Positions 1-26,518 of a stretch of 31,152 bases of DNA are shown in pieces. Origin of the DNA: a virus; the IMG/VR virus record IMGVR_UViG_3300010885_030821, positions 1 through 31,152 of that record; one strand, 5' to 3'. The notes beneath the pieces were generated by a model that was not told the origin of the DNA, did not search any database, and worked only from the letters and a program-made list of their open reading frames with translations. Position 1 is the first letter of the stretch; each line of letters opens with the position of its first letter. A program made the position numbers and the translations under genes.

Positions 1-395
1 AAATTTATTTTATCGTGGCTATCAGCCCGAGTTTTAGTAGTTTTCTTACGACCCGGTGCTAATGGAATATGGTCATATGTCATAATCCTAATAACAATAT
101 CTGTTTTTAGAATAGTTTTATAGTCCGGAGTGCATTCTAACAGCTTAATTTTTTTATCGCCGTTGGCTCGAGCTTGTGCAAATGTGTGGAGTCCGATGCG
201 TTTAGCACGAGCTCGTTTCGCTTCTGCTATGGTTCGAATATTGATTTTATCTAAACTGGTTAGTATAATGTCATGCTGGCTGTACTCTTGTTTGGTAAAA
301 CTAGAATATGTGCATTTACTGTTGTGTATTTCTATTAATAAATCCCTATTATTGAGATATTTTTGTTTTTTTGGTAACATTGGAAGCATTGTCAT
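1..395 (-). CDS. Probable late-transcription sigma factor (gp55-like), N-terminal part, cut by left edge
   Basis: An open frame reads leftward from an ATG at 395-393 with no stop before the edge (about 131 residues). An AAGGA Shine-Dalgarno lies at 410-406. The N-terminus has a short segment (KKQKYLNNRDLLIEIHNSK) that resembles the 'YVNNKELLQAI' start of T4 gp55. It is followed by a basic stretch (EAKRARAKRIG) and by 'VIRIMTYDHIPLAPGRKK', which I recall from late sigma factors of marine T4-like phages. The sigma-70-like core helices would lie outside the window, so the call cannot be confirmed here. The role would be to direct host RNA polymerase to TATAAATA late promoters. Context supports this: the gene is divergent from the late block, and its upstream region holds both a host-type promoter and a late box. 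It could instead be another regulatory protein; my family match is from memory. Confidence 0.55.
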   Translation of the reverse strand, partial: MTMLPMLPKKQKYLNNRDLLIEIHNSKCTYSSFTKQEYSQHDIILTSLDKINIRTIAEAKRARAKRIGLHTFAQARANGDKKIKLLECTPDYKTILKTDIVIRIMTYDHIPLAPGRKKTTKTRADSHDKIN

Positions 396-8140: not shown

Positions 8141-8157
8141 ATACAGAATTTTGTAAA

Positions 8158-8164
8158 ATAAATA
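8158..8164 (+). promoter_or_regulatory. T4-type late promoter box ATAAATA upstream of gp25
   Basis: AATAAATA (box 8158-8164) lies in the 29-base gap between spike and gp25 genes. With T4 late geometry, where the box ends at -6, transcription would start at 8170, the A of the gp25 ATG. No Shine-Dalgarno is visible between box and ATG. Confidence 0.5.
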
Positions 8165-8169
8165 CTATC

Positions 8170-8610
8170 ATGCCATATAAAAATTTAATAATTACAAACA
8201 ATTCAAACAAACCTCAGAATACGGTTCAACGTAGTCAATTTTATCGAGGATTTAGTTCTATAAACAGTAATACAACTGATACTAGAATGTACGATCTCAA
8301 TCTTGTTACACAAGATATTATAAATCAATTCAATACTAAGAAGGGGGAACGAGTAATGAATCCCGAATTCGGCAGTATTATATGGAATTTATTAATGGAA
8401 CCGTTAACTGACTCCGTAAGAACAGCATTAGTTAATGATGTTACACAAATATGTAATAGTGATCCGAGGGTAACTGTTGTAGAAATAAATTTAAACGAGT
8501 ACGAGCAAGGATATCTATTAGAATTAACATTGTTATTAAAGGGAACGACTCAGTCTACTACATTAAAGCTAAACTTTAATCAAAAAATAGGTCTTCAAGT
8601 AAACAAATAA
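8170..8610 (+). CDS. 25: Baseplate wedge protein gp25
   Basis: 146 residues with the gp25/gpW lysozyme-like wedge fold. 'YDLNLVTQDIINQFNTKKGE' (about 40-59) leads into 'MNPEFGSIIWNLLMEPLTD' (about 63-81) and then 'RVTVVEINLNEYEQGYLLEL'. This contains the EPR-like sheath-initiating core common to contractile tails, phage and type VI alike. gp25 with gp6 and gp53 forms the wedge core that nucleates sheath assembly. The start at 8170 keeps the N-terminal 'QFYRGFSS' segment usual in relatives. There is no Shine-Dalgarno, and the late box ends five bases before the ATG. The first internal Met (8287, in 'RMYDL') would lose the N-terminal 39 residues and seems less likely. Confidence 0.92.
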   Translation: MPYKNLIITNNSNKPQNTVQRSQFYRGFSSINSNTTDTRMYDLNLVTQDIINQFNTKKGERVMNPEFGSIIWNLLMEPLTDSVRTALVNDVTQICNSDPRVTVVEINLNEYEQGYLLELTLLLKGTTQSTTLKLNFNQKIGLQVNK

Positions 8611-8644
8611 TATACCTATATAAAATATAAAATAAATAGGTATA
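8611..8644. repeat. 9-bp perfect inverted repeat between gp25 and gp6
   Basis: TATACCTAT (8611-8619) and ATAGGTATA (8636-8644) are exact reverse complements around a 16-base AT-only loop. The left arm starts just after the gp25 stop. The right arm overlaps the end of the ATAAATA box at 8632-8638. There is no U-tract after the stem, so a classical terminator is unlikely. It could protect the 3' end of the gp25 mRNA or act as a protein-binding dyad. Confidence 0.55.
8632..8638 (+). promoter_or_regulatory. T4-type late promoter box ATAAATA upstream of gp6
   Basis: AATAAATA with predicted start at 8644 (T4 geometry), leaving a 17-base A-rich leader without Shine-Dalgarno before the ATG at 8661. 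The box overlaps the right arm of the inverted repeat 8611-8644. Confidence 0.45.
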
Positions 8645-8660
8645 ACAGAATAAAAAAATT

Positions 8661-9446
8661 ATGATCCCATCAACTAACAACCAACTATTAGTAGCAGAAA
8701 ATTGGACTAAGATCTATCAAAGTTATCGTAATGCTGACTTTCAAAGTTACGACTTCGAAACCATTCGACGAGTAATGATTGAATATCTTCAGCAAAATTA
8801 TCCTGAAGATTTTAACGACTATATTGATAGTAGCGAATACGTTGCTCTTATTGATTTAATTGCTTACTTAGGTCAAAATTTAAGTTTTCGTATTGACTTA
8901 AATGCACGTGAAAACTTTTTAGAAACTGCTAGCCGGCGAGATAGTGTGCTACAACTTGCACAATTAATTAGTTACGCTCCTAAAAGAAATGTGCCAGCGA
9001 ACGGATTTCTTAAAATAACTGCCGTGTCAACAACTGATAATGTATATGATTCTAGCGGAAATAATTTATCAAATACCGTTGTTGGATGGAACGATTCTAC
9101 AAATAAAAATTGGTATAATCAGTTTTTAACTATTTTAAATTCAAGTATGCCCGGTTCTTACACATTCGGAACTCCGACAGGAAGACAGACTATAAATGGA
9201 ATCTTAACAGAACAGTATACAGTTAACAGTAGCAATACAAATGTTCCTATATTTTCTTTCAATAAAAGTATAAACGGAACTCCGATGAACTTTGAAATAG
9301 TTCCTTGTACGTTTAGTCAATCGTCGACAGTTTATGAAGCCGCTCCTCGACCTGGCGATAATTTAGTTTCTTATATCAAAATGATAACCAAGGTTCGGGT
9401 AGCGGTAACACAGGATTTTTTGTTCATTTCCGTCAAGGAACTTTAG
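8661..9446 (+). CDS. 6: Baseplate wedge protein gp6, N-terminal part (frame interrupted)
   Basis: The 261-residue frame has the strong gp6 N-terminal signature: 'YDFETIRRVMIEYLQQNYPE' (about 30-49), 'SSEYVALIDLIAYLGQNLSF' and 'RENFLETASRRDSVLQLAQL' up to 'YAPKRNVPANGFLKI'. gp6 dimers form the continuous ring that clamps baseplate wedges together. After 'RPGDNLVSYIK' (near 9380) the frame yields about 20 residues unlike gp6 and stops at 9446. Meanwhile the -1 frame, open from 9368, reads 'NDNQGSGSGNTGFFVHFRQG', the expected gp6 continuation. The gene is therefore one gp6 gene, 8661-12004, with a -1 shift. One missing A in the AAAA run at 9378-9381 would explain it. A slippery heptamer at 9416-9422 offers a biological alternative. 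Start: ATG at 8661 after an A-rich leader. Confidence 0.85.
   Translation: MIPSTNNQLLVAENWTKIYQSYRNADFQSYDFETIRRVMIEYLQQNYPEDFNDYIDSSEYVALIDLIAYLGQNLSFRIDLNARENFLETASRRDSVLQLAQLISYAPKRNVPANGFLKITAVSTTDNVYDSSGNNLSNTVVGWNDSTNKNWYNQFLTILNSSMPGSYTFGTPTGRQTINGILTEQYTVNSSNTNVPIFSFNKSINGTPMNFEIVPCTFSQSSTVYEAAPRPGDNLVSYIKMITKVRVAVTQDFLFISVKEL
9416..9422 (+). promoter_or_regulatory. Possible -1 ribosomal slippery site T-TTT-TTG in gp6
   Basis: In the frame of the upstream gp6 part the codons here are TTT TTG preceded by T, which fits the X-XXY-YYZ rule. A -1 slip moves ribosomes into exactly the frame that encodes the rest of gp6, 22 bases before the TAG at 9444-9446. I see no convincing downstream stem or pseudoknot. 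Confidence 0.25.
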
Positions 9447-12005: not shown

Positions 12006-15000
12006 ATGGCAAATGATAATATTAATTCAGCCAACTTATTACCCGAATATTTTCAAACAGGTAAAAATAAAAAATTTTTATCTAGTACGATTAATCAACT
12101 AATTCAACCAGCTCAGTTAGAAAGGATTAATGGTTTTATAGGTAGCAAATTGTCACCAAACTATAATTCTATAACAGATAATTATATACCAGAAGTTTCA
12201 GAATTACGTAAAGACTATCAATTTAGTCCAGCACTAATTGTCTACGACGAATTAAGAAATGTGCAACGAGCTATCGGAATAGATGATCTGACTAACAGCA
12301 TCTCAATCCAAACTGGCTTAGACGGTAATTTTAATAAATTATACAGTTCTCCTACATATTCATATACCCCACACATTAATTGGGATAAATTTACAAATTA
12401 TCAGGAATATTATTGGTTAGTTACGGGCCCTGAACTTATTGTTATCGGTTCTTCTAATAACTATATCGATGTCAGTACCGATATCGTAGGTCAGACAAAT
12501 TACACATTCACATACATTACAACAATTGGCACGACTGCAACGCAGGCATTATCTAACGGAATGAAAATCCAATTTACGTCTGATATAGTTTCTCAAGAAT
12601 ATCAAAATAAAATATATTATGTCGAAGGAGTCGGCACTGCTATAGTTTTAGTTGATTATGATCAACTACAAGTGTCGACTCAGATGAATGAGGATTTTGT
12701 AGAACATTTTGATACCACACCTCTTGATAAATTTCCTTTTAATAATTCTAGATCTCTTGCAACATCTCCTGATTATATTACTATAAATCGTGCCAGCCGG
12801 GATCTTAATACCTGGTCAAGATATAACCGCTGGGTACACTCTCAAGTAATAACTGCAAGTGCTAAAGTAAATGGTACTATTCCGGTTTACCCTTCTAGTT
12901 ATCGAGCAGTTCGTCCTATTGTTGAATTTAATGCTAATCTTAAATTGTATAATTTTGGTACTATTGGAATTTCTAAAATTGATGTTATTGATACAGATAC
13001 TATAGATGCTTTTTTAACTATAGAAGGATCTGAGGGATATTATGTAGATGGTGTATTATTAGAACAAGGCAATACAATAATTTTTAACGCAGATAAAAAT
13101 CAAGAAGTTAGAAGCACTGTGTACAAAGTTAATTTTATCAAAGTAACCGGTGTTTATCAAATACAATTATTAGCAGTTGATCGACCTGCTATAAATTCTT
13201 CTACTATAATCGATTCCGGAAATACATATACTGGAACTAGTTGGCATTTTGATGGAAATTATTGGATTTTTTCACAGCAACATCAGACCCTCAATGATTT
13301 CCCCTTATTCGATTTATTTGATAACGTAGGAAATAGTTATAGTGACCCGTTGCACTATCAATCAGATTTTGTTGGAAATCGATTATTTAATTATGCAGTT
13401 GGTACAGGTGCGACTGACACTGTATTAGGTTTCCCTCTTCAGTATAAAAATAGTGCAGGAGTTGGAAGTTATTTGTTTAATAATTATTTTATGACAAATA
13501 CGATTACTATTTCAAACAATAATGTATTATCTACATTACCGACTTCGACTGCATATTTAAAATACACAGATCCGGCTGGCGATAGATTTGTAAACGTTTG
13601 GGAAGAGTCAAAAAACTCGCAGATTCCTATTTTACAATTTCAAACTACAACCACTTCGACTTCTCAAATACAATTAACTGCAATCGCTAATCCTACATCA
13701 TCTCAGGTTACAGTTGATGTATATGTTAATAATGAAAAGTTATCTACCGCAACTTATATTACGTCAACTACTTCTGTAAATTATTTTATAAATTTTAATA
13801 ATCCGATACCTGCACATTCAAACGTGTTATTTAAAATTTATAATAATAGTATCTTAACTACATCTGGATTTTATCAACTTCCGTTATCGTTAACTAATAA
13901 TCCTTTAAACGGACCTATTAGCAGTATGACAGACTCCGAAATAACTGATCACGTCAAAACTATGATTGAAACTGTTGATAATTTTTCAGGAACTTTCCCC
14001 GGATCAAATAATCTAAGAGATTTAAACGACCAAAAAGGAACGCAACTGATTTCGAATGCTAATCCATTACCGTTTGCTTTTCTTTTCCTCGGCGATAAAC
14101 ATCATAATGTAATAGATGCTATTCAAGATGCCGCCGAAAAATATAATCAGTTTAAATCAACATTTTTAAAACAAATACAGATGCAGTCAAACCAACTTGA
14201 TTTTGTTTCAGCAGTCGATACTGCAATGGCTGAAATTAATCAAAATAAAATAAATGTGGAATCATATTCATTGTCAGACATGATAGGGTATGGACAAGAT
14301 AAAATTGTAAGAACATGGACTGTAACAGATTCTAGAAATACAATATACCCTTTAACAAATTCATTTGATCTTTCAACATTAACCTTACGTTCTATACTAG
14401 TTTATGTTAACGGTGTTCAATTAATTGTTGACGTGGATTATATATTTGTACCACTTGATTCTTCTGTAGAATTTTTAATTAGTTTAAAAGTTGGGGATGT
14501 TATTGTAATTAATGATTACCAAAATACTTCTAATTGCTATATTCCTTCTACTCCGACTAAGTTAGGTCTATATCCGGCATTCGTTCCTAGCATTTATATT
14601 GACGACACATATATAACCCCGCAAAAAGTAATCCAAGGGCACGATGGTAGCATTACAATCGCATACGGCGATTATAGAGATGAAATTATTCTAGAATTAG
14701 AAAAAAGAATTTATAACAATATAAAAACAAAGTACCGTCTAGAATTGTTTGATATAAATTCAGTGTTGCCTGGCAATTTTAGAAATACTGACTACTCTTT
14801 AACAGAAATAACTCAAGTGTTAGAAACTGATTTTATTAGATGGGCTGGAATTTTTGGTATATATTATTCTACCAATGCCGCATTCGATGAATTCGAGTCA
14901 TTTACTTGGAATTATTCAGGATCAGTTAGTACCGTCGGACATGTACAATTATCTGGGTATTGGAGAAGTATCTATAAATTATTTTACGACACTGATCGCC

Positions 15001-18000
15001 CGCACACGCATCCTTGGGAAATGTTAGGTTTATCTCAAAAACCTGTTGATTGGGAAATCACATACGGTCCTGCTCCGTATACTTCCGGAAACCAAATATT
15101 ATGGGATTATATAGAATCAGGCGGCGGAAATTTAACGTATGCTCGTCCGGGCCTGAGTGATATCTTGCCAGTTAACCAGTACGGAGAATTAATTCCTCCT
15201 AACCAATTGTTGACATTTAATACCACCGCATATTCTATAAGACAGCCATTTGCATTTGGAAATCAAGGACCTGTAGAAACATCATGGCGTAAGAGCAGTT
15301 TTTATCCGTTTGCTATTCAAAGATTATTAGCATTAACTAAACCTGCTATCTATGCGTCTTTGATGTACGATACCAGTCGAATAGATGTTAATATAGCCGG
15401 ACAATGGACGTACGGAGATAAACGCCAATTTTTAAATCCTAAAAATATTGCAATTCACGGAGATGACGGAATATTAACTAGCGGGTACGGAGTTTATGTT
15501 TCAGAATATGGACAACAGCGGTCTAATAATTATATTAACGAATTAAAAGCAGATTTAAAATACTTTGATATTAATTTATTTTATAAAGTAGGTGGCTTTA
15601 TAAACAAAAATAACATGACAGTTACTATTGATGCATATAGTCCAACGTCGGTTGATCCTGGAGCAATACTGCCACAAGAAGATTATTCGTTATTCTTAAA
15701 CATCAGTAATCCAATAGGATCAGCAAATATCAGCGGTGTCGTTATACAAAAATCAAACGGAAAATTTATAGTTAAAGGATACGATCGATATCAAGGATTT
15801 TTTAACATACATTTACCTATAAGAAATAATTCTACCTCGGCTCTTACAGTTGGCGGAATTTCAGAATCTTATGTGACATGGAGTTCGGCTACATCAGCAG
15901 GTCCAACCGGCCTATCAGCTAGCGAAACTACAACAGCTAGATCGGCAACAAACACTTTATTTTATACGCAAGGTCAGATTGTTTTTTATAATAACAAATA
16001 TTATAGAGTAAAAGTTAGTCATACTCCTGAGGGATCTTTTAATTCATCGTTGTATGTGCAAATTCCTGAATTACCTGTTACAGGTGGTGTCACAGTGCAA
16101 CGTGCCACAGGATTTTCAACAAAAATTACAAAAATTCCTTACGGAACAGAATTTTCAACTGTTCAGGAAGTTTATGATTTTATCATAGGATACGGAAATT
16201 ATTTAGAAAAACAAGGATTTATATTTGACGAGTATAATTCAGATGTTGGGGAAATTTTAAATTGGAATTTTACCGGAAAAGAATTCTTATTCTGGTCTAG
16301 TCAAAATTGGGTCGATGACAGTATAATAACACTAAGTCCTTTTGCTGATCGAATCAAATTTCAATCTAAGGTCGCGGTAATTGATAATTTATTTGATAGT
16401 TTTTATGAATATAATATTTTAAGAGCTGACGGAAAACCGTTCTCACAAAAATATCTTTCTGTAAATAGAGAAAATGAAATTTGTACTATATCTACAAATA
16501 ATACCGACCAAGGGATTTATTTTGCTATATTGCGTCCTGTACAAAAAGAACACGGGATGGTATTACGCAACACTAGCTTGTTTAATGATACTATATTTGA
16601 CATAGAGTCAGGGTATAGACAACTGCGTATAAAATTATCTGGATTACGAACTTCTGGATGGAACGGTGATTTTTCAAGTCCCGGATTTGTCTACGATACT
16701 GCAAAAATTTATCCATGGACTCGGTATGTTGATTATGTCTATGCAGACACTATTACTGTCAACGGGAAGTATTATTCAGCCAAACAAAATATCCCCGGGT
16801 CTTCTTCGTTTAATGTTGCAGACGGCTGGATATTATTAGACAAAAAACCTACAGCAAGCTTAATTCCAAATTTTGATTATAAAATTAATCAATTCCAGGA
16901 TTTTTATAATTTAAATATAGACAACTTCGACGCCGGCCAACAAAAGATGGCACAACATCTTACTGGTTATACTCCGCGCCCGTATTTAAATAATATTTTT
17001 AGTAATCCAATCGCACAGTATAAATTTTATCAAGGATATATTAAAGAAAAAGGTACAAAAAATTCTATATCGAAACTTTCTAAAGCAAGTATGTATAATA
17101 TGGAAGGATCGGTAGATTTCTCAGAAGAATGGGCATTTAGAGTTGGTACTTTTGGTTCTTTTTCTACTTATCAAGAAATTGAATTTCCTTTAATGGAAGG
17201 CACTTTTTTAGAAAGCCCACAAATCCTTAATTTCGTTTCTGAAAAACCTGTGAATAAAAATGATTTAACTGTACATATTCTTCCAACAGATTTACAAATT
17301 ACTCCTATAGATTTTAATGTAAATTCAGTATTTGCAACAACTACAGGTACTGATAATTTAATAATAAACACAGCAGGATATGTTAGAATTGATGATGTTA
17401 CGGCTACCGCTTATAACGAAAACAGTTTACTAGATATTGCGAATCCTTCTCTTCCTGAAGGAACAACTGTTTGGGTAGGATTTAAAATTAACGGCGATTG
17501 GGATGTTTTAAGATATGAAAATACCGGTGTAAAATTAATTGGAGTATATGTAAGTTCTCCTGGATATACAATCACATTTACTACGGATGTTCGGCACAAC
17601 TTACAAGTCGGCGATATAATTTTTTGCACACAGTTCAATTCTCAAGTTAACGGAGTTTATCGTATTTTTGATATTCCAACACCTACAGAAATTACAGTTT
17701 CTTCAGCCATATCAAGCATTACTAATGAGCCATTGCTTTCTCCCGGATTATTATTTAAATTCAGTAGTCAACGATTTGCAACATTTTCTCAAATTCCCAA
17801 TGATTATACATTATTAAAATTGCCATATAAATCAAAATTATGGATCGATAATAACGGAGCAGGAAAATGGGCGGTATATCAAAAAATTAATAATTATCGA
17901 TCTTCTTCGATAAAAAATAAAAGCCCGACAATTTTAGAATTTGGTAGAACTATTGCCAAAAGAAAAAATAGTGATATTTTAATGGTGGCAGCTCCGTACG

Positions 18001-21000
18001 GATATGATCAAATTGATACCAGTCCTGAGATTGGCGGAAGCGTAGGCGGATCTGGAACACAGAATGGTATTTCTAGAAGTGCTAGCAGTTCTTTAACTAT
18101 ACTTGGTTCTAGTTTTTCTAGTCTAAGCAGTAGTACCGATGTTACATTATCTCAAAGTTTATCAAGAACTAGTATTTCTCAAAATAACTCAATTATTACA
18201 AATACTCTGAATGTAACAACTTCTACAGGCAAAATTTTTATCTATAATGTATCTAGCTCAACTACTAAGTTATCATTTAGTTACGATATTAATCAAGACG
18301 GATATACTCCAGTATTTTATCATTATTCTCAAGATCCGATTGAGGCTGGTAAGGCAATGGTATACGATGATATTAACTTTAACTATACTCACCTTGGATT
18401 ATTTTTTGTCGGTGCCCCCGGAACGGGAGCAACAGTTTCAAATTCTCCTATAGGCGGATTAAGACAATCAACCGGGACCGGCACTGTGTCTACGTTAGTA
18501 CAAGAAGGTCTTGTAAAAATCAGCAGTAACTCGGTAGGATCGTTGACTCAAAAAACAGAATTTGTTTTATTAAGCCCCGATGCATCGACTAGCTATCAAC
18601 GATTTGGTTCTTCGCTTTTTGTACAATATAACACCAGCACTAAACTAATGTTAGTGGGTGCTCCTGCAACCGGAACTACTGGCACCGGGGCAGTATATTC
18701 GTACATAGTTAATTCTTCAGGACCTGCATTGTCGATAAATTATATAGGACCTGTTACTCCGGGTAATGTAGATACAATTACAGTTGGGTCAGGTAGCACA
18801 GCAGTAACAACTACGTATACCGGGCACTTATCGACTGGAGCATTATGGGGTTATTCAATAAGCGGGTCAGACAACGCAAACTATATAGCTATTAGTGCGC
18901 CCGGTGCATATACAAGTACCGGTTTTGTCTCAATATATCAATATTCAAATAACGCATTAACTATTTTACAAACTATTAACGGATCTGATTTGGGATTTTT
19001 AGTCGAAGACGAGTTTGGCTCGGCAGTAAAAATGAGTCCTGATGGAGATTATCTGTTTATATCAACTCCCTCTCATCGAAACTCAGATAATTCCTATGGC
19101 GTGGTTTCAGTCTTTACTAACACCGGGGGAACTTTTGTAATTAATCAAACTATTACTAATCCTCGCCCTGGAAGAGGAATGAAGTTTGGTCAAGCAATCG
19201 ACTGTAATACCTCTGTAGATAATTTGGTAATATCTGCGGTAGGCGGAAATACTCCTCAATATACAACGTTTGATAGTACATCGTCTTTTGGGCAAGTAAC
19301 CTTTGACACAAATGAAACAGTAATAGTCGATCTTATAGGAAATGCAGGAACAGTTTATGTTTATAATAGAACAAATCAATACGATCGATTCGCACTAGCC
19401 GACGAGTTACGTCCACCTAAGCAGGCCACTAGTTCGTCTTATGGAATCAGCTTACAGGTAGACGACTGTGAAGTATATGTTGGATCACCGTTTCCTGTTA
19501 CTACTACCTCTCCGACTGAATACGGATCTTTTTTCCAGTTCACTAAAAAGAATTGCAAGGTTAATAGCTGGAACAAATTAAGAACGCAACCAAATACTGT
19601 AGACATTGATCAATTTCAAAAGATTTCTCTTATAGATACACTTAATCAAACGGTAGTTGATTACTTAGATATAATTGATCCGGTTAAAGGAAAGATTGCA
19701 GGACTAGCGAAAGAAGAATTAAAATATATATCATCGTATGATCCTGCAATATATTCTATAGGGTCCGCCGGAGTAAATGTTAATACTAATACTAGTTGGT
19801 TAGATGAACATGTCGGAGAATTATGGTGGGATTTAAGCACTGTAAAATACATGTGGTACGAGCAAGGTGAGTTAAGATATCGAAGAAATAATTGGGGGAA
19901 ACTCTTCCCAGGGGCAACTATTGATGTATACGAATGGGTAGGAACAAAATACTTACCTAGTGAGTGGAGTAAATTAGCAGATACTACTGCGGGTTTGGTA
20001 GAAAGCATAAGTGGCCAACCTAAGTATGCTGATGGAAGCGTAATGGCTGTAAAACAAGTTTATACCTCATCAGGCTCTCTTACTAATTTTTATTATTATT
20101 GGGTTAAAAATAAAATTACAATACCTGCAACAAAGAATAGAAGGAAAAGCGCATTCAACGTAGCAAGTCTTATTGCTGATCCAACAAGCTATGGTTATAA
20201 ATTTTTATCGCCACTTGCTCCTTCGGCTGTATCTTTAGCTAATATTGGTACAGAATTAGTTGCTGATAATATCAGTTTAAATATTGCATTTGATAAGACT
20301 AAAAATAGTATTAATAAACACACTGAATGGTTATTGTTACAAGAAGGTAGCGCCGATAGTCGACCAAATACTCTATTAGAGAAAAAATTAATCGATAGTC
20401 TACTAGGACACGACAGTCTTGGCAACTTAGTGCCTGATCCTGCGTTATCTCAAAGATTAGCATACGGAATTGATATTCGACCTAGACAAAGTATGTTTGT
20501 TAATAGAAAAGAAGCATTACGTAATTTAATTGGGTTCGCTAATAGTGTATTAATTTCTCATCAAATTACCGGAAATTATAATTTTGATAAATTAAATTCT
20601 CAAGAAACACCGCCTGATCAATATTCCCATGAATACGATCAAATAGTCGAAGATACAGAACTTCGAGATCTTATAAGTACTGTTCGGTTAGTGCAGGCTG
20701 AATTATCTTGTACTGTACAAAATGGAAAAATTGAAGCTGTTGAAATCATAAATCCGGGTTTTGGCTATAAAATAGCACCTAGCATTATAGTCCATCCTAA
20801 TGATACAGGAGTTGATGCTGTTATAACAACAGAAATTGACGCCAATGGAAGTGTTGTGTCAATCCAAATAATTAATTCTGGTAGCAAGTATGAAATTGCG
20901 CCAACTTTAGCAGTTCGTCCTTATACTGTATTGGTATTATCGGACACTGACAGTAATGGAAAGTGGGCCATGTTCTCCTGGGATAAATTATCTGGGCAAT

Positions 21001-22388
21001 GGATTAAAAATTATACACAATTATACAATACAACTCTTTATTGGAGTTATGTAGACTGGGCCAGTAGTACATATAATAAGTATGTTCCAATATCGGCTAC
21101 TGTTGCTTCTTTAAATTATCTGTCATCGTTGTCGGATATACAAATTAATCAATATGTTAAAGTATCAAACGGCGGTGATGGAAATTATCTAATTTTAGAA
21201 AATACCTCTACAGGAACTGGAACTTTTAATAATGATTATAATTTAGTTTATAAACAAAAAGGAACTATACAGTTATCTGATGCGTTATGGGCTAGTAATA
21301 CTAGCAATCTTGCATTTAGCGATATTAACTATGATCTAACATTATTTGATCAAACAGCAGACATTGAGTTAGTAAATATCTTAGATGCATTAAAAACTGA
21401 CATATTTGTCGGCGAATTGCAAGTCAACTGGAATTTATTTTTCTTTAGTGCGGTAAAATATGCCTTAACAGAACAAAAATTACTTGACTGGGCATTTAAA
21501 ACAAGTTTTATAAATGTAATAAACTATGCCGGAAATTTAGATCAGCGTCCTGTTTACAAATTACAAAACTCTTCTTATTTTATTGATTATATTTCTGAAG
21601 TAAAACCGTACCATACTCAAATAAGAAATTATACAACAAATCACACTTATGTTGATCCAAGTAGGTCATTCATTACAGACTTTGATCTACCAGCAGTGTA
21701 CAATACTGCAACCGGGCAATACCAATCAATTGAACTAGGTAATACTATTTTAAATACCTATCCTTGGAAGGCATGGGCTGACAATTATAAATTTTACGTT
21801 GAGAGTATTAGTATCGGCAATCCTGGAAATAATTATATCAATAGACCAATAGTTGAAATACAAACAGCCGCGGGTGATTACGGGTCAGGAGCGACCGCCG
21901 AGGCATATATTACAAAGGGAAAAATTAGTCAAATTGTTATTTTATCACCCGGCGCTAATTATTTAAAAACTCCTAATGTAATAATACATAGTACAGATCC
22001 TGATGTAACGCCTGCGGTTGCTTATGCACAATTAGCAAACGGTACGATCCGTACTAATTTAATAGGAATGAAATTTGATCGAATAGGAGTTAATAACTCG
22101 ATCAATTCTACAACAGCAGTCGATACTTTTAAGTGCGACGGTCATGCTACTGAATTTATGTTATCATGGTTAGCCGATCCAACGAAATCTGATATAATAA
22201 TCACGCTTGACGGATCGTATGTGTTTTTATCAGATTTTGAAATTAAGTTTTATACTGAAACGATCAATGGCTATTCAAAAAAATTATATAAAATTGTATT
22301 TTTAAATTACACACCGCGTATAGGTCAAATTTTATCAGTTACTTATAATAAAAATATAGAAATTTTTGATGCTACAGAAAGAATTTAA
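12006..22388 (+). CDS. Giant baseplate wedge-region structural protein with FG-GAP propeller
   Basis: 3460 residues (10.4 kb). The N-terminus ('LLPEYFQTGKNKKFLSSTIN', about 11-30; 'INWDKFTNYQEYYWLVTGP', about 123-141) matches very large virion proteins I recall from marine T4-like phages. Residues about 1980-2510 hold seven FG-GAP-like repeats, including 'FGSSLFVQYNTSTKLMLVGA' and 'FGSAVKMSPDGDYLFIST', interrupted by a Ser-rich insert at about 2008-2076. Next comes 'GELWWDLSTVKYMWYEQGEL', conserved in this family. Four 'I-NPG-xxY-xxP' beta-repeats lie near 2896-2975 and 3263-3348. 'YISEVKPYHTQIRNY' lies near 3195. The place after gp6 is that of T4 gp7/gp8, so a wedge role is inferred. AGGA precedes the ATG within the gp6 end. 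The TAA at 22386 seems to cut a longer protein, since the same frame continues into the next ORF. Confidence 0.7.
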   Translation: MANDNINSANLLPEYFQTGKNKKFLSSTINQLIQPAQLERINGFIGSKLSPNYNSITDNYIPEVSELRKDYQFSPALIVYDELRNVQRAIGIDDLTNSISIQTGLDGNFNKLYSSPTYSYTPHINWDKFTNYQEYYWLVTGPELIVIGSSNNYIDVSTDIVGQTNYTFTYITTIGTTATQALSNGMKIQFTSDIVSQEYQNKIYYVEGVGTAIVLVDYDQLQVSTQMNEDFVEHFDTTPLDKFPFNNSRSLATSPDYITINRASRDLNTWSRYNRWVHSQVITASAKVNGTIPVYPSSYRAVRPIVEFNANLKLYNFGTIGISKIDVIDTDTIDAFLTIEGSEGYYVDGVLLEQGNTIIFNADKNQEVRSTVYKVNFIKVTGVYQIQLLAVDRPAINSSTIIDSGNTYTGTSWHFDGNYWIFSQQHQTLNDFPLFDLFDNVGNSYSDPLHYQSDFVGNRLFNYAVGTGATDTVLGFPLQYKNSAGVGSYLFNNYFMTNTITISNNNVLSTLPTSTAYLKYTDPAGDRFVNVWEESKNSQIPILQFQTTTTSTSQIQLTAIANPTSSQVTVDVYVNNEKLSTATYITSTTSVNYFINFNNPIPAHSNVLFKIYNNSILTTSGFYQLPLSLTNNPLNGPISSMTDSEITDHVKTMIETVDNFSGTFPGSNNLRDLNDQKGTQLISNANPLPFAFLFLGDKHHNVIDAIQDAAEKYNQFKSTFLKQIQMQSNQLDFVSAVDTAMAEINQNKINVESYSLSDMIGYGQDKIVRTWTVTDSRNTIYPLTNSFDLSTLTLRSILVYVNGVQLIVDVDYIFVPLDSSVEFLISLKVGDVIVINDYQNTSNCYIPSTPTKLGLYPAFVPSIYIDDTYITPQKVIQGHDGSITIAYGDYRDEIILELEKRIYNNIKTKYRLELFDINSVLPGNFRNTDYSLTEITQVLETDFIRWAGIFGIYYSTNAAFDEFESFTWNYSGSVSTVGHVQLSGYWRSIYKLFYDTDRPHTHPWEMLGLSQKPVDWEITYGPAPYTSGNQILWDYIESGGGNLTYARPGLSDILPVNQYGELIPPNQLLTFNTTAYSIRQPFAFGNQGPVETSWRKSSFYPFAIQRLLALTKPAIYASLMYDTSRIDVNIAGQWTYGDKRQFLNPKNIAIHGDDGILTSGYGVYVSEYGQQRSNNYINELKADLKYFDINLFYKVGGFINKNNMTVTIDAYSPTSVDPGAILPQEDYSLFLNISNPIGSANISGVVIQKSNGKFIVKGYDRYQGFFNIHLPIRNNSTSALTVGGISESYVTWSSATSAGPTGLSASETTTARSATNTLFYTQGQIVFYNNKYYRVKVSHTPEGSFNSSLYVQIPELPVTGGVTVQRATGFSTKITKIPYGTEFSTVQEVYDFIIGYGNYLEKQGFIFDEYNSDVGEILNWNFTGKEFLFWSSQNWVDDSIITLSPFADRIKFQSKVAVIDNLFDSFYEYNILRADGKPFSQKYLSVNRENEICTISTNNTDQGIYFAILRPVQKEHGMVLRNTSLFNDTIFDIESGYRQLRIKLSGLRTSGWNGDFSSPGFVYDTAKIYPWTRYVDYVYADTITVNGKYYSAKQNIPGSSSFNVADGWILLDKKPTASLIPNFDYKINQFQDFYNLNIDNFDAGQQKMAQHLTGYTPRPYLNNIFSNPIAQYKFYQGYIKEKGTKNSISKLSKASMYNMEGSVDFSEEWAFRVGTFGSFSTYQEIEFPLMEGTFLESPQILNFVSEKPVNKNDLTVHILPTDLQITPIDFNVNSVFATTTGTDNLIINTAGYVRIDDVTATAYNENSLLDIANPSLPEGTTVWVGFKINGDWDVLRYENTGVKLIGVYVSSPGYTITFTTDVRHNLQVGDIIFCTQFNSQVNGVYRIFDIPTPTEITVSSAISSITNEPLLSPGLLFKFSSQRFATFSQIPNDYTLLKLPYKSKLWIDNNGAGKWAVYQKINNYRSSSIKNKSPTILEFGRTIAKRKNSDILMVAAPYGYDQIDTSPEIGGSVGGSGTQNGISRSASSSLTILGSSFSSLSSSTDVTLSQSLSRTSISQNNSIITNTLNVTTSTGKIFIYNVSSSTTKLSFSYDINQDGYTPVFYHYSQDPIEAGKAMVYDDINFNYTHLGLFFVGAPGTGATVSNSPIGGLRQSTGTGTVSTLVQEGLVKISSNSVGSLTQKTEFVLLSPDASTSYQRFGSSLFVQYNTSTKLMLVGAPATGTTGTGAVYSYIVNSSGPALSINYIGPVTPGNVDTITVGSGSTAVTTTYTGHLSTGALWGYSISGSDNANYIAISAPGAYTSTGFVSIYQYSNNALTILQTINGSDLGFLVEDEFGSAVKMSPDGDYLFISTPSHRNSDNSYGVVSVFTNTGGTFVINQTITNPRPGRGMKFGQAIDCNTSVDNLVISAVGGNTPQYTTFDSTSSFGQVTFDTNETVIVDLIGNAGTVYVYNRTNQYDRFALADELRPPKQATSSSYGISLQVDDCEVYVGSPFPVTTTSPTEYGSFFQFTKKNCKVNSWNKLRTQPNTVDIDQFQKISLIDTLNQTVVDYLDIIDPVKGKIAGLAKEELKYISSYDPAIYSIGSAGVNVNTNTSWLDEHVGELWWDLSTVKYMWYEQGELRYRRNNWGKLFPGATIDVYEWVGTKYLPSEWSKLADTTAGLVESISGQPKYADGSVMAVKQVYTSSGSLTNFYYYWVKNKITIPATKNRRKSAFNVASLIADPTSYGYKFLSPLAPSAVSLANIGTELVADNISLNIAFDKTKNSINKHTEWLLLQEGSADSRPNTLLEKKLIDSLLGHDSLGNLVPDPALSQRLAYGIDIRPRQSMFVNRKEALRNLIGFANSVLISHQITGNYNFDKLNSQETPPDQYSHEYDQIVEDTELRDLISTVRLVQAELSCTVQNGKIEAVEIINPGFGYKIAPSIIVHPNDTGVDAVITTEIDANGSVVSIQIINSGSKYEIAPTLAVRPYTVLVLSDTDSNGKWAMFSWDKLSGQWIKNYTQLYNTTLYWSYVDWASSTYNKYVPISATVASLNYLSSLSDIQINQYVKVSNGGDGNYLILENTSTGTGTFNNDYNLVYKQKGTIQLSDALWASNTSNLAFSDINYDLTLFDQTADIELVNILDALKTDIFVGELQVNWNLFFFSAVKYALTEQKLLDWAFKTSFINVINYAGNLDQRPVYKLQNSSYFIDYISEVKPYHTQIRNYTTNHTYVDPSRSFITDFDLPAVYNTATGQYQSIELGNTILNTYPWKAWADNYKFYVESISIGNPGNNYINRPIVEIQTAAGDYGSGATAEAYITKGKISQIVILSPGANYLKTPNVIIHSTDPDVTPAVAYAQLANGTIRTNLIGMKFDRIGVNNSINSTTAVDTFKCDGHATEFMLSWLADPTKSDIIITLDGSYVFLSDFEIKFYTETINGYSKKLYKIVFLNYTPRIGQILSVTYNKNIEIFDATERI

Positions 22389-25809: not shown

Positions 25810-25816
25810 ATAAATA
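25810..25816 (+). promoter_or_regulatory. T4-type late promoter box ATAAATA (distal) before the fibre block
   Basis: AATAAATA in the 83-base gap after the 1119-residue ORF. The T4-geometry start is at 25822, giving a 34-base leader to the ATG at 25856. It is one of two such boxes in the same gap. Confidence 0.45.
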
Positions 25817-25843: not shown

Positions 25844-25850
25844 ATAAATA
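25844..25850 (+). promoter_or_regulatory. T4-type late promoter box ATAAATA (proximal), leaderless geometry
   Basis: CATAAATA ends five bases before the ATG at 25856, so T4 late geometry puts the transcription start on the A of that ATG. No Shine-Dalgarno lies in the intervening TCACT. The arrangement repeats that at gp25 (8158-8170). Confidence 0.45.
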
Positions 25851-25855
25851 TCACT

Positions 25856-26518
25856 ATGGATACTAAAAACACACAACCGTTACCGAAAGAATCTAACATG
25901 ACACAACCATCAAAACCCAACGAACAAGGCGCTTTTAGTATACAAGGACACATAAAAATATTTGATCCTGTGACTAAAGAAGTGTTTATTAATAAGCGTA
26001 ACGCAATTCACTACGAAAATTTTGCTGTATCACTTGCACAGAGTATTAGTAATCAAGGGTACGGATTTATCGTAGATATGAGCTTTAGTAATGGCGGAAC
26101 TAGAGTAGATCAAACTGGTATTATTACATACCTAACTCCAAATACCGTTGGCATCAGTGCCAATTTGTATAATCAAACTTATGCTAAAACAATTGATGCA
26201 AAACAATCAACTGATAAAGACCCTTCAAGAAATTACATGGAAGTGCGACATGTAGCCGGTACTTCTTACGCAGATGTTCTAGTAAATTGTTTATTAGATT
26301 TCGGAGAACCTGCGGGACAGGCGGCTTTTGACAATGCTACAGATTCGTCGGGTGACTTTATATTTGACGAATTAGGATTAAAAGCGTATAGTGCAAATGG
26401 TGTAGGTACTGGGGACTTGTTAACTCATGTTATTTTTCATCCTGTACAGAAATCCTTAAACAGAATGATACAAATAGAATATACAGTGCGTATTCAAAGT
26501 TTAACTGCTGGAATGTAA
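25856..26518 (+). CDS. Conserved tail/baseplate structural protein of unknown role
   Basis: 220 residues. The first about 25 residues are polar and probably disordered. The body contains 'HIKIFDPVTKEVFINKRNAI' (about 32-51), 'MSFSNGGTRVDQTGIITYLT', 'ADVLVNCLLDFGEPAGQAAF' and a C-terminal 'LLTHVIFHPVQKSLNRMIQI'. I recall similar proteins beside tail-fibre genes in marine T4-like phages, annotated only as structural or hypothetical, so no role is claimed beyond probable virion component. The place between wedge proteins and fibres would suit an attachment or connector protein. No Shine-Dalgarno is present, and the late box ends five bases upstream. A second Met (25898, residue 15, 'NMTQPSKP') is an alternative start that would remove only the disordered tail. 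The stop is one base from the next ATG. Confidence 0.65.
   Translation: MDTKNTQPLPKESNMTQPSKPNEQGAFSIQGHIKIFDPVTKEVFINKRNAIHYENFAVSLAQSISNQGYGFIVDMSFSNGGTRVDQTGIITYLTPNTVGISANLYNQTYAKTIDAKQSTDKDPSRNYMEVRHVAGTSYADVLVNCLLDFGEPAGQAAFDNATDSSGDFIFDELGLKAYSANGVGTGDLLTHVIFHPVQKSLNRMIQIEYTVRIQSLTAGM

Follow-up and report, generated by a model that had tools for sequence, protein, structure and literature searches.

Late promoters of the gp55 type very probably give rise to leaderless mRNAs, that of the baseplate gene gp25 included, in a virus represented by a 31,152-nt stretch of DNA (IMG/VR record IMGVR_UViG_3300010885_030821, hereafter the window). This reading is based on the promoter box, its spacing from the start codon, the absence of a Shine–Dalgarno (SD) sequence and the conservation of the arrangement in related genomes.

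Putative promoter boxes and a gp55-like sigma factor in the window

The protein encoded from position 8170 is a GPW/gp25 baseplate wedge subunit (PF04965, phrog_43), and the sequence at its start reads ...TTTGTAAAATAAATACTATC-ATGCCATAT. As had been pointed out in an earlier reading made without database searches (the sequence-only reading), ATAAATA ends exactly 5 nt before this ATG, and the same geometry recurs at the gene starting at 25856 (Table 1). The lack of an SD sequence, also claimed there, was confirmed: none was found upstream of ATG 8170 or ATG 25856, unlike genes 527 (AGGA), 1372 (AAGGA) and 1673 (AGGA), which have one. The 8-bp TATA box TATAAATA with a variable position -13 is matched by AATAAATA at 8157–8164. 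Applying T4 numbering (-13 to -6) to the gp25 box places A at -13 and would place +1 on the A of the ATG. A at -13 is the commonest deviation in T4, being present at nine of fifty listed sites (PMC2988020).

ATAAATA is rare in the window, with 6 copies observed versus 25.4 +/- 4.9 in dinucleotide shuffles, and four of the six lie in short gaps directly before 8170, 8661 and 25856 (two at 25856). The product of the 25856 gene is probably virion-associated, given its location in the tail region. The box of the neighbouring gp6-like gene sits 22 nt from its ATG and that of gp25 only 5 nt, so both layouts occur in the same phage. An inverted repeat is present at the gp6 promoter (8611–8644; 9-bp stem, -7.5 kcal/mol, z -2.9), and in the gp6 leaders of many relatives its left arm corresponds to the first 7 nt past the box, with an SD-like loop. 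Late transcripts would therefore lack this arm; transcripts of this kind, without one arm of a hairpin, have a precedent in T4 gene e (PMC3014915). The tail gene region also contains a single ORF of 3460 aa (10.4 kb, 12006–22388).

Table 1. Positions of putative late promoter boxes, associated genes and the sigma factor gene in the window
Feature	Position	Strand	Remarks
First part of a gp55-like late sigma factor gene, truncated at the window end	3..395	-	phrog_12791, 27-374, E 7.7e-22
ATAAATA, putative T4-type late promoter box of gp25 (A at -13)	8158..8164	+	NTAAATA kept in 66/69 orthologues
5-nt spacer CTATC, pyrimidine at -1; predicted +1 = A of ATG 8170	8165..8169	+	
gp25-like baseplate wedge subunit, predicted leaderless	8170..8610	+	PF04965, phrog_43; without SD
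ATAAATA, putative box of gp6-like gene, 22 nt from ATG 8661 (leadered layout)	8632..8638	+	15-27 nt in 61/61 orthologues tested
gp6-like baseplate wedge gene, leadered contrast in the gp25 operon region	8661..9446	+	
Further ATAAATA copy 39 nt upstream of ATG 25856; may be an additional promoter, for a leadered transcript	25810..25816	+	
ATAAATA, putative late promoter box, 5 nt (TCACT) before ATG 25856	25844..25850	+	spacing 5 in 49/70 orthologues
phrog_11259 gene, probably virion-associated (tail region), predicted leaderless	25856..26518	+	

The box and its probable reader, a gp55-like sigma factor, are encoded within one 31-kb stretch, and the sigma gene (phrog_12791) is also present in all 11 other records searched. 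Upstream of it, at 418–472 on the minus strand, lie TATAAATA (472–465), then TTGACA-N16-TACAAT (445–418), close to the consensus of host promoters, and an SD sequence, AAGGA. A search for a gp45-type clamp in G001–G008 using the models phrog_223 and PF02916, by which a diverged clamp could be missed, gave no match; both models detect the clamp of T4, and phrog_223 also that of Syn9. The activation step, which in T4-type late promoters depends on the gp45 sliding clamp, may therefore differ from that of T4. No conserved -35 element shared upstream of the box was seen by eye among gp25 orthologues.

Conservation and spacing of the box in related genomes

Relatives were drawn from viral contigs using the gp25, gp6 and 25856 proteins as queries. 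NTAAATA is located 4–7 nt before the ATG in 66 of 69 distinct gp25 orthologue starts; 62 of these 66 lack an SD-like motif, and in the other four AGGA or AAGG is located before the box or at its edge. An SD is present in each of the three boxless orthologues (L116, L201 and L169). Of the 70 starts in the 25856 family, 49 are exactly 5 nt away from the box, although the start codon itself is displaced by -21 to +42 nt when the sequences are aligned. The spacing in gp6 orthologues varies from 15 to 27 nt (61 of 61 tested).

A genome-wide control was run on relatives, since the record of the window comprises only 31 kb. Five large relatives (G001–G004 and G006) were read; these contigs are metagenomic, genes were called as the longest ORF with an in-frame ATG, and kinship was handled by family counts. 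The box-to-ATG spacing in these genomes is bimodal, with 62 genes at 4–8 nt (the close class), very few at 9–13 nt and 85 at 14–44 nt (the far class). An SD-like motif precedes 1 of 62 close-class genes, versus 52 of 85 in the far class (Fisher P 7e-16) and 418 of 935 genes without a box (P 3e-14). The spacing class is stable within families (44 of 44 close for gp25, 81 of 82 far for gp6), the family tally being 28 close, 61 far and 2 mixed. In one of the far families the box is only 12–14 nt away, which corresponds to a short leader.

The comparison of box-to-start distances with controls, proposed in the sequence-only reading, was strongly positive: in a scan of heptamers and offsets over 1368 gene starts, ATAAATA at 5 nt ranked first (23 seen, 0.13 expected), outscoring every single SD heptamer. 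Chance and base composition as the source of the signal were ruled out by permuted heptamers and shuffles. At the 5-nt spacing the first base of the box is relaxed (A 31, T 13, G 13, C 8), and the other one-base variants tested gave at most 3 cases each. A wider locus set with spacings of 4–8 nt contained 153 ATG, 2 GTG and 1 TTG start codons, with a modal spacing of 5 and a pyrimidine at -1 in 91% of the close class; both the AUG bias and this pyrimidine are as expected if the A of the AUG is +1. T4-type late promoters are expected to start roughly a helical turn downstream of the box. In the far class a YR start signature is modest, with its maxima 5 and 8 positions past the box and not at 6, making the exact +1 uncertain by about one base. 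At spacing-7 sites, A occupies position 5 in 14 of 16 cases, and members with spacings of 4 and 7 may need a shifted start or leaders of 1–3 nt.

One could hypothesise that the box serves as a late promoter for downstream genes and has an incidental spacing, while most gp25 translation takes place on transcripts of the upstream operon, through coupling or through reinitiation behind the preceding stop codon. gp25 does follow closely behind gp5, in several orthologues with a changed first box base TAAATA appears to overlap the gp5 stop codon, and in 21 of the 62 close-class genes the start overlaps a same-strand gene or is no more than 20 nt away from it. However, coupling is excluded for another 22 of the 62, where the upstream gene is divergent, and for 7 more that are separated from a same-strand gene by over 50 nt. 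The distance from the gp5 stop to gp25 is 29 nt in the window, where the 25856 gene begins 83 nt past the preceding gene, and gp6 has a box of its own at variable spacing. We consider this explanation unlikely.

It is less likely still that AUAAAUA is not a promoter but a translation signal in the mRNA, although it occupies the position of the SD and substitutes for it. The same box lies 14–44 nt upstream of genes of which most also have an SD (the 52 of 85 noted above), is depleted elsewhere, and occurs on both strands where divergent genes begin. Moreover, it agrees with the consensus of T4 late promoters, and the phage codes for a gp55-like sigma factor.

A gene-calling error would be another source of an apparently leaderless layout, if the true starts were downstream and provided with an SD, a possibility which the sequence-only reading had itself raised. 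An in-frame ATG with an SD-like motif does occur within 40 codons in 8 of the 62 close-class genes of the relatives, but not in gp25 or the 25856 gene of the window. The gp25 orthologues keep their N-terminus from the present ATG, and the close-class ATGs of the cultured Pelagibacter phage HTVC008M coincide with deposited, independently annotated gene starts. Such an error appears the least probable of the three explanations, and leaderless late transcription remains the preferred one.

The products of the close class include virion structural and tail-tube proteins, but also apparent enzymes and homing-endonuclease-like proteins (identified by eye). The proposal that this phage expresses some virion genes from leaderless late transcripts is supported by comparison of the sequences, and the predicted layout extends further, to the freshwater relatives and the ocean phage HTVC008M and to non-virion genes.

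Several other features of these genomes were observed. A conserved family of about 97 aa (MALAKGT/MSLNRGE; L175, L198, L221, about 50 loci) has the box 12–14 nt before the ATG and a short, conserved AAGTAGGTA-like leader without a classical SD. N-termini like MRINELFE or MKTFKDYLTE are common to many box-driven proteins (L192, L195, L222, L364, L380). These termini are similar to the sequence that targets the internal proteins of T4 to the capsid, and the proteins may therefore be injected head proteins. The ribosomal protein bS21 is encoded in G003, G004, HTVC008M, Phosso, PA5oct, Atu_ph07 and SCTP-2. Its distribution does not match that of the leaderless class, and it was rejected as a driver of leaderless translation, being present in Phosso and PA5oct, where the class is absent, and missing from G001 and G002, where the class is present. 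A search for a phage IF3 found none, and megablast against phages gave no match.

Comparison with cultured phages and known leaderless mRNAs

No gene with a box at 4–8 nt was found in T4, Syn9, CBB or Phosso; for the last two and for Atu_ph07, a 372-kb part of each genome was covered. The recovery of 22 boxes at 16–30 nt in T4 validates the method; the statement that the gp25 layout is not the T4 pattern thus holds. PA5oct and Atu_ph07 have 2 genes each at 4–8 nt, which corresponds to background, and Atu_ph07 has no clear close class. In SCTP-2, 6 genes were found, all at exactly 5 nt, versus 3.6 for control heptamers at 4–8 nt, which is a weak hint. By pattern count only, S-PM2 showed no excess of close boxes, and KVP40 and Cr30 few matches. 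In the cultured distant relatives Phosso, PA5oct and CBB, gp25 itself has an ordinary layout: its box lies at a distance of about 20 nt in Phosso, with AGGAG, and of about 21 nt in PA5oct, with AGGA and GTG as the start codon, and CBB has AAGGAG but no box.

The late promoters of T4 (TATAAATA; gp55, gp33, gp45) and those described here are alike in having a box with a relaxed -13 position, no visible -35 conservation, a phage-encoded gp55-like sigma factor and structural genes downstream. Unlike in T4, many genes here carry the box 4–8 nt from the AUG, and no gp45-type clamp was detected in the relatives. The RaK2-like jumbo phages CBB and GAP32 have an ATAAATA late motif before structural genes and a gp55-like factor, as here, and neither gp33 nor gp45 was detected in them (PMC5259590). 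However, the boxes of CBB all lie further away, with 40 at 16–60 nt.

The closest counterpart among cultured phages is HTVC008M, with 12 genes at 4–8 nt, of which 9 have a spacing of exactly 5, none at 9–15 nt, and leadered boxes at >=18 nt accompanied by AGGA-type SDs. Its close class includes baseplate and tail genes. Among the members are a baseplate wedge subunit (31132, where gp25 should sit), a tail tube cap (19456) and, on the minus strand, a tape measure (16007) and a DNA end protector (18916). HTVC008M differs in being smaller (147 kb), in belonging to Kyanoviridae, and in having an annotated late sigma factor together with a polymerase processivity factor (gp45 function). We found no published account of this layout for HTVC008M and no prior report of leaderless T4-type late genes in the open-access literature.

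Leaderless mRNAs are known from lambda cI and mycobacteria. As in these cases, the AUG here is at the (predicted) 5' end, is preferred as the start codon and lacks an SD; unlike them, a gene class under one phage sigma factor is involved, in lytic-type phages. Lambda cI has been named as a leaderless mRNA, and a strong preference of such mRNAs for an AUG start has been described in E. coli (PMC9031893). Phage AR9 was rejected as a leaderless precedent, since its mapped leaders are 26–491 nt long.

Proposed mechanism and its implications

In the mechanism we propose, 8158–8164 takes the role of a -10-like element in a late promoter of the T4 type, and RNA polymerase carrying the phage gp55-like sigma factor would read this promoter. 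The polymerase would open the DNA at ATAAATA and begin transcription at the sixth base past it, which is the A of the gp25 AUG; where relatives have a different spacing, +1 would fall within about 3 nt of the AUG. The gp25 mRNA would then be leaderless and translated from its 5'-terminal AUG without an SD. With the same box 14–44 nt from other genes, such as gp6, and often combined with an SD, one promoter type would support two translational layouts. We infer the start site from promoter spacing, and the late timing and leaderless translation are inferences as well.

The late promoter of T4 is a standard textbook case, and T4 itself has no box at so short a distance from a start codon. In the 28 close-class families, the predicted start of a T4-type promoter coincides with the AUG, and gp25 orthologues have either the box or an SD. 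Sets of leaderless mRNAs would thus be predictable from sequence alone, with start codons fixed for gene finders. A late promoter prediction method failed for pelagimyophages (PMC7029224), and the close layout may explain why their late promoters escaped it. HTVC008M offers a cultured phage–host pair in which the layout is testable.

A more tentative idea is that leaderless late mRNAs constitute a translational regulon, in which a fixed set of gp55-controlled genes is leaderless while the rest retain leaders and SDs. The output of virion parts would then be set by changes that the translation machinery undergoes late in infection (free 70S ribosomes, initiation-factor ratio), and this layout would have arisen or been kept in large freshwater phages and SAR11 phages.
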